Source: Streptomyces mirabilis (GTDB taxonomy: Bacteria; Actinomycetota; Actinomycetes; Streptomycetales; Streptomycetaceae). From it: a stretch of DNA of 64,000 nucleotides. A program made the translations under genes and the position numbers. This document shows, one piece after another, positions 57,992-60,591 of this stretch (the stretch's first letter is position 1; each line of letters starts with the position of its first letter). The notes beneath the pieces were generated by a model. It searched no databases. It worked only from the letters and a program-made list of their open reading frames with translations, and had not been told where the DNA came from. The stretch lies in contig NZ_JBCJKP010000001.1 in the NCBI RefSeq assembly GCF_039503195.1, positions 7,502,001 to 7,566,000 on the forward strand, read 5' to 3'.

Positions 57992-59296
57992 TCACTCGGG
58001 GAATGGCTGCGGCGGCCGAGCTCCTACGTAGTGACCGCTCGGGCGCATGCGCAGCGGGCGTTCCTCGTACTCCTCCAGGGTGTGGGCGATCCACCCCGCT
58101 GTTCGGGCGACGGCGAAAACCGTCTCCCCGGCGGAGGCGGACATGCCGGAGGAGACCGTGAGGACGGCCAGCGCCAGGTCGACATTGGCGTGCAGGGGAG
58201 TGTGCCGGGCGGTGGTGGTCACGATGTCCTGGGCCGCCGCCAGGGCGGGCGCTGCGCCCGGGACCTCCTCCAGGAGGGCGAACAGGGCACGCGCGCGGGG
58301 GTCCTCGCCGGGGTAGAGCCGGTGGCCGAGCCCGGGGACACGGCGTCCGGCGCGCAGCTCGTCGGCGACCACGGGGGCCGCGGTGCCCTGGTCGAGGACG
58401 TCGAGGAGCAGCCGGTGGGCGAGGCCGCTGGCCGCGCCGTGCAGGGGGCCTTCGAGCACGCCGAGGCCCGCCGAGACGGCGGCGTACGGGTGCGCCCGTG
58501 CCGAGGCGGCGACCCGCACCGCGAGCGTCGAGGCGGCCAGATCGTGGTCGACGAGCAGGCCGAGTGCCGTGTCCAGCACTCGCAGTGACGCTCCGTCGGG
58601 TGTCCGGCCGGTGAGGCGTCCCCACAGCCGGTGGGCCAGCGGGCCTTCGTCGCGATGGTCGTGACGCAGGGACGGGAGGGCGGCGACGAGAGTGGGGATG
58701 AGGGTGCGCGCGGTGCCGAGGACGGCGCTCTCCGAGAGGTCGAAGCGCAGTGGATCGGCGGCCGAGGCGGCGATCGCGGCGACTCGGAGCCGATCCGTGG
58801 GGCCGCTGTGCTCGGGCAGCGCGTCCACGGCGCGGCGGGCGGCGGTGACGGACGCCTCCGGGGCGGTGAACGTGACGCCGGGGCGCAGCTGTCCCGTCCA
58901 CAGCCATTCGGCGATCTCTTCGTAGGAGTGACGCGCGGCCAGTTCGGTCGCGTCGACGCCTCGGTAGTAGTACCGGTCCTTGTCGATGAGAGTGACGCGG
59001 GTACGGACGGACAGCTCGCCGCCGGTGCTCGAACTCCCGCTGGAGTCGCGCCTGTTGCGCCGGGCGAGTGCCTCCACCTCCTTGGCGTCGAAGGTGCTGC
59101 CCCGGCCTCCGGGGTCGCGTCGGCTACCGAGCTGACCGCGGCTCACATACGCGTACACGGTCTCGGGCTTCACACCGAGCAACTCGGCGGTCTCCCTGGT
59201 GCTGAGCCGCCGGCCTTCGTGGCCTCCGTGTCCTCCAGGTCCTTCGTGTCCCTCGCGTCCTTCGTGCGTCGACCCTGCCGCTTCGTGATCCCTCAT
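57992..59296 (-). CDS. Citrate synthase-like protein with N-terminal helix-turn-helix
   Basis: 434 aa. A His/Gly/Glu-rich leader (GHEGPGGHGGHEG) is followed at about residues 30-75 by LSTRETAELLGVKPETVYAYVSRGQLGSRRDPGGRGSTFDAKEVEALARR, a MerR/excisionase-type HTH. The rest is a citrate synthase domain with catalytic residues at the expected motifs: VLEGPLHGAASG, GLGHRLYPGEDPRA and ANVDLALAVL. ATG 59294-59296 is preferred; a TTG at 59359 would start inside the operator-like palindrome. Divergent from a second citrate synthase, 98 bases apart. It may be both enzyme and regulator; that is inference. Confidence 0.88.
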   Translation of the reverse strand: MRDHEAAGSTHEGREGHEGPGGHGGHEGRRLSTRETAELLGVKPETVYAYVSRGQLGSRRDPGGRGSTFDAKEVEALARRNRRDSSGSSSTGGELSVRTRVTLIDKDRYYYRGVDATELAARHSYEEIAEWLWTGQLRPGVTFTAPEASVTAARRAVDALPEHSGPTDRLRVAAIAASAADPLRFDLSESAVLGTARTLIPTLVAALPSLRHDHRDEGPLAHRLWGRLTGRTPDGASLRVLDTALGLLVDHDLAASTLAVRVAASARAHPYAAVSAGLGVLEGPLHGAASGLAHRLLLDVLDQGTAAPVVADELRAGRRVPGLGHRLYPGEDPRARALFALLEEVPGAAPALAAAQDIVTTTARHTPLHANVDLALAVLTVSSGMSASAGETVFAVARTAGWIAHTLEEYEERPLRMRPSGHYVGARPPQPFPE

Positions 59297-59322: not shown

Positions 59323-59341
59323 ATATTGATTCAATCAATAT
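59323..59341. promoter_or_regulatory. AT-rich palindrome between the citrate synthase genes
   Basis: ATATTGATTCAATCAATAT: perfect 9-bp arms around one central base, in a region of far lower G+C than its surroundings. A second element, TTGACACGGATTGAGTCAA (59341-59359), follows directly. Probably an operator or overlapping promoters of both genes. Confidence 0.75.
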
Positions 59342-59394
59342 TGACACGGATTGAGTCAAGCATGGACAGTCGAATCAAGTTCAGGGAGGAATGC

Positions 59395-60591
59395 ATGCCG
59401 AACAACCCGGCCGTGGCCGCACCGTCCATGACCCCTGTCGACGTACCGAGAGGACTCTCGGGCGTCGTCGTCACCGATACCGCACTGGGTGACGTCAGGG
59501 GGCGGGAGGGCTTCTACCACTACCGCCAGTATTCGGCGGTCGAACTCGCGCAGACCCGCGGGTTCGAGGACGTCTGGCATCTACTGGTCCACGGTGAACT
59601 GCCGGACGTGGCGCGCGGTGCCGCCTTCGCCGCGCGGACCGCGGCACTGCGTGGGCTGCCGGAGGAGGTGCGCGTGGCGCTGCCGGCGATCGCCGCGGCG
59701 ACCGGACCGTCCGGACCGCTCGCGGGGCTGCGGACCGCGTTGTCGCTGCTCGGGGCGTCGTTGGGGTTCCGGCCTGTGTACGACATCGACGTCGACCGGC
59801 GTCGCGCGGACACGCTCGCGGCGTGCGCGGCCGTGCCGACGCTGCTCACCGCGCTGTATCGGCTCGGGCGGGGGCTGGAGCCGGTGGAACCGCGTGACGA
59901 CCTGCCGTATGCAGCGAACTACCTTTACATGCTGACGGGCTCGGAGCCGGATCCGGCGCGGGCCCGGGCGGTCGAGCAGTACTTGATATCAACCATTGAT
60001 CACGGATTCAATGCGTCAACCTTCACCGCGCGGGTGATCGCGTCGACAGGGGCGGACGTGACGGCGTGCCTGGTGGGCGCGGTCGGGGCGCTGTCGGGCC
60101 CGCTGCACGGTGGTGCGCCGAGCCGAGCCCTGGACACCCTCGACGCGATCGGTACATCCGACCGCATCGACTCCTGGATCCGTGAACGAGTCCTCGCGGG
60201 CGATCGCATCATGGGCTTCGGGCACGCGGTGTACCGCACCGAGGACCCCCGCTCCCGCATGCTCCGCGGTATCGCCCAGCAGTTCGGCGGTTCTCTGGTC
60301 GATTTCGCCGTCGAGGTCGAACATCGGGTGGAGGCGATCCTGGCCGAGCTGAAGCCCGGCCGAGAACTCCACACCAACGTGGAGTTCTACGCGGGCGTGG
60401 TCATGGAACTCTGCGGCCTCCCCCGGGAGATGTTCACCCCCACCTTCGCCGCGGCCCGCGTCGTCGGTTGGAGCGCCAACATCCTGGAACAGGCCGAGGA
60501 CCCGAAGATCATCCGTCCGGCGGCACGGTATGTGGGGCCGGTTCCACCGGTGGCGGTGCCGGTGGCCGGCCGGCGCGATCCAGTGTCGTGA
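59395..60591 (+). CDS. Citrate synthase (second, CitA-like)
   Basis: 398 aa. Condenses acetyl-CoA (or propionyl-CoA) with oxaloacetate. Motifs: GREGFYHYRQYSAVELAQ, STIDHGFNASTFTARVIASTGAD, LSGPLHGGAPSRAL (His), MGFGHAVYRTEDPRS (His), HTNVEFYAGVVMEL, where Glu stands in place of the usual catalytic Asp. ATG 59395 follows AGGGAGGA. A short AT-rich codon block (59983-60020) breaks its codon bias. Divergent from the HTH-citrate synthase. Either citrate or methylcitrate synthase activity is possible. Confidence 0.88.
   Translation: MPNNPAVAAPSMTPVDVPRGLSGVVVTDTALGDVRGREGFYHYRQYSAVELAQTRGFEDVWHLLVHGELPDVARGAAFAARTAALRGLPEEVRVALPAIAAATGPSGPLAGLRTALSLLGASLGFRPVYDIDVDRRRADTLAACAAVPTLLTALYRLGRGLEPVEPRDDLPYAANYLYMLTGSEPDPARARAVEQYLISTIDHGFNASTFTARVIASTGADVTACLVGAVGALSGPLHGGAPSRALDTLDAIGTSDRIDSWIRERVLAGDRIMGFGHAVYRTEDPRSRMLRGIAQQFGGSLVDFAVEVEHRVEAILAELKPGRELHTNVEFYAGVVMELCGLPREMFTPTFAAARVVGWSANILEQAEDPKIIRPAARYVGPVPPVAVPVAGRRDPVS
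59983..60020 (+). promoter_or_regulatory. Intragenic AT-rich operator-like block in citrate synthase
   Basis: TTGATATCAA (59983-59992), then TTGAT-CACGGATT and GTCAA (59996-60019), resemble the upstream elements TTGATTCAATCAA and TTGA-CACGGATT-GAGTCAA in order, spacing and the CACGGATT core. The codons used (ATA, TCA, GGA, AAT, GAT) are rare in this genome. Confidence 0.5.

Follow-up and report, generated by a model that had tools for sequence, protein, structure and literature searches.

Synonymous codons of a Streptomyces citrate synthase gene may spell a second, intragenic operator

Operator O2 of the lac system of Escherichia coli is an auxiliary operator that lies about 400 bp inside the gene it regulates, lacZ, and helps the regulator at the promoter. 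In Streptomyces, BldC is a regulator with a winged helix-turn-helix (HTH) of the MerR type that is described as binding AT-rich sites of variable length, in which it reads direct repeats of AATTNNNN(C), present in variable numbers (PMC5859096). The intergenic region of citA3 and citA4 (SCO5831/SCO5832) of S. coelicolor is given as a target of MtrA and was bound in EMSA (PMC12323332). Here, we consider a stretch of 64,000 nucleotides from S. mirabilis (the window), in which a citrate synthase gene contains a block of 13 codons that, judged from its sequence, is probably functional at the DNA level. Our main reading, to which we assign a probability of roughly 0.55, is that the block holds a second operator within the coding sequence, and that the promoter's regulator, most likely an HTH-fused citrate synthase, would bind at both sites and so tighten control.

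The features of the locus are collected in Table 1. The gene that holds the block scores above the cut-off of the citrate synthase subfamily NF009005 (346 versus 332 bits); its start was picked via the ribosome-binding site, and upstream in-frame alternatives are possible. The divergent gene encodes a protein, referred to here as the HTH-citrate synthase, with an N-terminal domain that exceeds the Pfam cut-offs of HTH_17 (34 versus 27 bits, residues 31-82) and MerR_1 (24.9 versus 21.6 bits); at 22.4 bits it falls below the curated HTH_BldC cut-off of 77 bits. In the set used for most comparisons, namely the window gene and the best 80 of 594 protein matches (the 81 best-match genes), the HTH-citrate synthase gene is divergent and adjoining in 80 of 81 loci, and it adjoins the citrate synthase gene in 66 of 69 further loci. 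Two genomes, G089 and G150 (the latter that of locus L041), have an intact citrate synthase gene with no neighboring HTH gene, the HTH gene being found elsewhere. The catalytic Asp of citrate synthases is usually found within NVDFY. The region 60372-60395 of the citrate synthase gene encodes HTNVEFY, with Glu in this place, and the divergent HTH protein keeps Asp (HANVDL); either of the two may have an unusual activity.

Table 1. Coordinates, within the window, of the genes and of the observed and proposed regulatory features
Feature	Position	Strand	Basis
HTH-citrate synthase, 434 aa, candidate regulator, divergent	57992..59296	-	PF00285, HTH_17 and MerR_1 above cut-off
Putative promoter-side operator region	59325..59378		Half-sites conserved in 80 aligned loci
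Palindrome ATTGATTCAATCAAT	59325-59339		Part of promoter-side operator region
TTGAC-N9-GTCAA	59341-59359		Part of promoter-side operator region
Distal ATCAA	59374-59378		Part of promoter-side operator region
Putative citrate synthase promoter (-35 TTGACA, 59341-59346; -10 TGGACA, 59363-59368)	59341..59368	+	Inferred from conserved upstream alignment
Ribosome-binding site AGGGAGG	59383..59389	+	Sequence; GGGAGG kept in upstream alignment of carriers
Citrate synthase gene, 398 aa, 1197 bp, holds the block	59395..60591	+	PF00285, E 2e-108
13-codon block, 7 A/T endings, all five TTGA/TCAA of the gene	59983..60021	+	Sequence counts, synonymous shuffles
Proposed intragenic operator core, 24-bp dyad TTGAY-N14-RTCAA	59996..60019		Paired codons, joint change, purine rule

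The block encodes LISTIDHGFNAST (TTG ATA TCA ACC ATT GAT CAC GGA TTC AAT GCG TCA ACC). A preliminary description of this DNA had remarked on its codon usage, with A or T at the end of seven of 13 codons (ATA, TCA, ATT, GAT, GGA, AAT and TCA) in a gene that otherwise uses G/C endings. This anomaly is confirmed: outside the block, 56 of 375 degenerate codons of the gene (15%) end in A or T, and none of its other 13-codon windows away from the block has more than five such endings. The binomial probability of at least seven in 13 is 0.0012, for a block that had been picked for looking odd. TTGA or TCAA starts at 59983, 59989, 59996, 60008 and 60016; there are none of these tetramers in the HTH-citrate synthase coding sequence and seven in the 98-bp intergenic region. 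Five starts within 34 nucleotides are found at only two places in the 64-kb window, 59326-59356 at the promoter and 59983-60016 in the block. Among the non-palindromic tetramer pairs that contain three A/T letters (32 in all), just four give any such cluster: TCAA/TTGA with three overlapping counts, AAGA/TCTT with two, and ATCA/TGAT and ATTG/CAAT with one each. The protein accounts for some of the letters, the TCAA at 60008 being dictated by Phe-Asn and found in carriers and non-carriers of the element alike, and the pyrimidine that follows the intragenic TTGA being forced by Asp.

Synonymous codons were then shuffled within each gene. Across the 81 best-match genes, the block contains 250 TTGA/TCAA against an expected 103.1 ± 4.6, with a maximum of 119 in 500 shuffles, and the rest of the same genes matches expectation (122 found, 119.7 shuffled); the rows of the alignment are related and therefore do not amount to 81 independent cases. 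A/T endings average 0.27 in the block of these best-match genes and 0.097 (S.D. 0.037) in windows away from it; the sole window with an equal value (0.270 at 59416) is that of the gene's 5' end. When positions of the same alignment with at least 20 rows were compared, the same residues elsewhere were not coded in this way: Ser before a codon starting with A is TCA in one of 81 and two of 61 rows, and Ile before Asp or Glu is ATT in two of 51, two of 26 and two of 74. In a larger set of 150 genes, the two Ser positions of the block are occupied by TCA 108 times, TCC 129 times and TCG 56 times, and never by TCT or AGT; ATA is never found at 59995. This choice of letters bears on the very unlikely possibility that the block acts in translation, either by slowing ribosomes at consecutive rare codons or by keeping this part of the mRNA unstructured. 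ATA, TCA, ATT and AAT are indeed rare in the gene, and the motif encoded by the block is conserved in the enzyme, but codon rarity by itself would not lead one to expect the absence of TCT and AGT at Ser or of ATA at 59995, many lineages use common codons for the same motif, and the folding energy is ordinary (mean z 0.30 in 48 carriers and 0.41 in 31 non-carriers).

The element is lineage-limited, with many lineages lacking it. A tree was built for the 150 genes (147 different genes, as three row pairs are identical genes drawn twice), of which 60 combine TCA at 60016 with a codon of the form xTT at 59995; of the others, 82 have neither codon and eight have one of the two. Of the 60 carriers of both codons, 54 lie outside and six within a second, distant group (L138, L139, L065/L142 and L068/L143, the last two being pairs of identical genes) that includes genera other than that of the window. 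The element thus appears to be either old, with many losses, or gained at least twice. It must also be dispensable, since the 82 genes with neither codon are nearly all accompanied by the HTH-citrate synthase, and in many of them the promoter operator is present as well. The two codons tend to come and go together. A tree of the 150 genes that leaves out the block gives nine independent pairs; xTT at 59995 and TCA at 60016 agree in direction in 5.8 of them and disagree in 0.1, with a median p of 0.031 (range 0.016-0.22) that is nominal and one among ten tests. None of the other block codons, with same-to-opposite ratios of 4.1:0.2 (AAT), 3.2:0.3 (TCA at 59989), 3.1:0.3 (GAT) and 2.7:2.4 (GGA), and none of four control codons outside the block (2.3:0.5, 2.4:0.7, 2.9:1.3 and 2.1:2.0) fell below 0.05 by median p.

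The letter preceding the second of these half-sites also follows a rule. Where TCA stands at 60016, the base before it is a purine in 62 of 63 genes; among the 87 genes lacking this TCA, it is a purine in 30. The purine is kept in all three genes in which Ala is replaced (L021, L025 and L138); the rule has no power when applied to independent pairs (1.0 the same way, 0.0 opposite, 8.0 without a difference). Together with the joint change of the two codons and the RTCAA and TTGAY found at the promoter, the purine rule leads us to regard the element as a dyad of 24 bp formed by the promoter's half-site, around which weaker accessory TTGA and TCAA would be arranged. Some relatives have a further TTGA at 59932, which precedes the dyad by about 64 bp (14 of 48 carriers with a score of at least 3, three of 33 others) and may be an extra accessory half-site. 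Pairwise associations between block codons (Fisher p 0.003 for GAY-GCR, 0.057 for AAY-GCR and 0.016 for GAY-AAY) were set aside because A/T content and ancestry confound them.

The rate of synonymous change gives a different picture. The preliminary description held that freely varying synonymous sites in relatives would count against selection on the DNA, and on this the outcome is mixed: freedom to vary is the rule across the genus and at several codons of the block, and less so at the two half-site codons. No block-wide slow-down was found in the 81 best-match genes (143 synonymous changes versus 143.1 ± 18.5 expected), in a clade of 44 rows (88 versus 78.7 ± 11.4) or in the 38 carriers of this clade (58 versus 62.7 ± 9.9), and this unreduced change stands beside the 82 of 150 genes with neither key codon. 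For single codons of the 44-row clade, TCA at 60016 changed five times against 8.4 ± 3.7, which is not significant, TCA at 59989 seven times against 8.4 ± 3.7, and ATT four times against 1.4 ± 1.7, on a background of near-fixed ATC. Among the 38 carriers, TCA at 60016 changed twice against 7.7 ± 3.4, a low count that, like others in this subset, is partly built in because the carrier score includes the codon; GAT, GGA and AAT vary freely among carriers. A further codon, ACC at 59992 (one change versus 10.4 ± 3.4 in the 44-row clade), was rejected as a mark of the element because it is common in non-carriers too (75 of the 81 best-match genes overall).

The block-wide rate would fit an inherited accident of codon usage, an old A/T-rich patch, maintained through common descent or recombination, that is now without function and decaying to G/C. 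Its presence tracks the gene tree, many members are partly decayed, and the variability of GAT, GGA and AAT among carriers fits as well. We nevertheless regard such an accident as improbable: it does not account for a tetramer excess far beyond the shuffles, for two half-site codons that vanish jointly more than control codons do, for Ser codons confined to particular letters in the 150 genes or for the G/C coding of the same residues elsewhere in the gene. The selection at the DNA level that had been proposed is supported by the shuffle excess, the particular letters, the joint gain and loss of half-sites and the RTCAA held in common with the promoter, and it finds no counterpart in the block-wide rate of synonymous change.

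At the promoter, the half-sites are highly conserved. In the 80 of 81 best-match loci that could be anchored, they occur at fixed offsets in the layout TTGA-5-TCAA-2-TTGA-11-TCAA-15-TCAA, being present in 79, 79, 80, 71 and 67 loci, respectively; the three TCAA read RTCAA in 79 of 79, 70 of 71 and 66 of 67 cases, and the two TTGA read TTGAY in 79 of 79 and 80 of 80. The promoter of the window has two further tetramers, at 59331 and 59351, and the -10 hexamer TGGACA reads TAGACA in some relatives. The palindrome followed by TTGAC is found upstream in 80 of the 81 best-match loci with at most one mismatch and in 50 of 69 further loci with at most three. It had been suggested that the block echoes these upstream elements some 655 bp downstream. 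The distance holds (655 bp from the promoter TTGAC to the intragenic TTGA), as does the order of elements, but the intragenic layout is TTGA-2-TCAA-3-TTGA-8-TCAA-4-TCAA, so that spacings of 5-2-11-15 at the promoter face 2-3-8-4 in the block. A longer echo, CACGGATT, is present in the window; we have dropped it because relatives lack it upstream, where their consensus is TTGACAG followed by variable bases, and the likeness is probably chance.

This difference in spacing, and the absence of the N14 dyad spacing among the promoter sites, would suit a second regulator that binds the intragenic dyad, the likeness of half-sites being convergence or chance. In its favor, MtrA was reported to bind at the corresponding intergenic region of S. 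coelicolor (PMC12323332), and the dyad is found at 10 sites in the genome against three for a reversed control. Four of these 10 are one repeated sequence, and with such numbers no regulon is claimed. The repeat is the 24-mer TTGACCAGTGCAGGATGTGGTCAA, which occurs at four places (G000:C1:114558, 298614, 355814 and 10502029) and is perhaps part of a repeated mobile element. Counts for TTGAC-N9-GTCAA (four sites, six in the control) and, at its length, TCAACCATTGA (one site, none in the control) are uninformative. A second regulator seems unlikely to us, given that within the 64 kb such a density of tetramers is otherwise seen at the promoter alone and that the flanking purine/pyrimidine rule is common to both. 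The MtrA consensus in that report, GTAACC-N5-GTAACC, is unlike the block, and the site listed for MtrA matches the conserved TGGACAGTCGAATCAA part of the promoter and not the block (PMC12323332).

We also considered an internal or antisense promoter within the block, which is highly improbable. TTGAYC resembles a -35 box, and an antisense RNA to a citrate synthase gene named 'gltA2' is on record for S. ambofaciens (PMC8388888), a gene that is not tied to that of the window; by eye, however, no conserved -10-like hexamer stands at the proper distance on either strand.

A second operator, which the preliminary description had offered for looping or roadblock repression, is the best explanation of the block. 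What the sequences show is the codon anomaly, the tetramer excess over shuffles, the joint gain and loss of two half-sites and the half-site in common with the promoter; that a protein binds there, which protein it is and the looping or roadblock step are what we infer beyond that. In such a mechanism, selection would have favored synonymous codons that form RTCAA/TTGAY half-sites, chiefly those of the 24-bp TTGAY-N14-RTCAA, and the promoter's regulator, most likely the HTH-citrate synthase, would bind both the promoter and the intragenic dyad, about 650 bp apart. Through intragenic binding, the citrate synthase gene would come under tighter control by one of two routes: a DNA loop could hold the regulator near the promoter, or the bound regulator could act as a roadblock to elongating RNA polymerase. 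With up to two mismatches allowed, the genome contains the palindrome only once, as would suit a regulator that acts locally, and adjacency in most loci together with a well-conserved HTH makes the HTH-citrate synthase the best candidate binder. Its HTH has a mean conservation of 0.84 over 146 loci, compared with 0.78 in the enzyme domain and 0.51 in the linker; the HTH helix is near-invariant in carriers and non-carriers and does not separate them. Among 59 carriers, 20 different distances separate the promoter from the element. Helical phasing between them, as would be expected of a short, tight loop, lacks significance at 10.5 bp (p 0.34) and 11.0 bp (p 0.54) and is nominal at 10.0 bp (p 0.021), a result that speaks neither for looping nor against it; some distances are perhaps chance matches to the loose promoter pattern (one mismatch). 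It is possible, and we put it forward only tentatively, that the HTH-fused citrate synthase senses a central metabolite and binds RTCAA both at the promoter and inside its neighbor, whose codons would have been recruited, and repeatedly lost, as a switch. Under the same tentative reading, its HTH would be MerR/BldC-like, and the codons of a conserved enzyme motif would carry a regulatory switch of Streptomyces and its relatives.

Two homologues of the citrate synthase gene are interrupted. In genomes G048 and G089, the gene is split after about codon 40 (FYHYRQ/YSAV; homologous place in the window, 59519-59532) into 5' pieces (L167 and L169) and 3' pieces (L164 and L165), with near-identical DNA inserted after CACTACCGCCAGTA in both and the halves about 163 kb (G048) and 115 kb (G089) apart. 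From its sequence, this looks like an integration site. In G089, a second citrate synthase gene (L099), which is intact and preceded by a promoter operator of its own, lies between the halves; the inserted element may have brought it along as a spare. A literature search on this point gave no paper that is obviously about such integration into a Streptomyces citrate synthase gene.

Were the second operator real, it would be a clear natural case of operator-type selection on synonymous codons against a GC-rich background, for which species with and without the element already provide the controls, and it would point to the HTH-fused citrate synthase as an enzyme-derived regulator at the entry to the TCA cycle.

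How, then, does the locus compare with the described systems? With citA3 and citA4 it shares the arrangement of two citrate synthase genes about one intergenic region, and the MtrA site given there, TTGACTTAACTGTCCA, is the reverse complement of TGGACAGTTAAGTCAA, which is like the conserved TGGACAGTCGAATCAA found here at about -16 (PMC12323332). From this likeness, we take citA3/citA4 to be the probable orthologues of the window pair. The passages of that report on this region mention neither an intragenic site nor an HTH domain (PMC12323332), and a literature search, which covered the papers naming SCO5831 in part, found nothing on an intragenic site in this gene. The candidate regulator resembles BldC in having an HTH of the MerR type (PMC5859096), by analogy only, and departs from it in having a citrate synthase domain and a score below the BldC cut-off. 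The resemblance to lac O2 is that of a proposed auxiliary operator inside the regulated gene. Two properties of such an operator are found in the block, namely constraint on the DNA sequence within a coding region, seen in the shuffle excess and the joint change of half-sites, and the RTCAA/TTGAY half-site in common with the promoter; the spacing and layout of the main operator are not. Unlike lac O2, the element described here is a predicted operator with a candidate regulator, is limited to certain lineages and arranges its half-sites at spacings that differ from those of the main operator.
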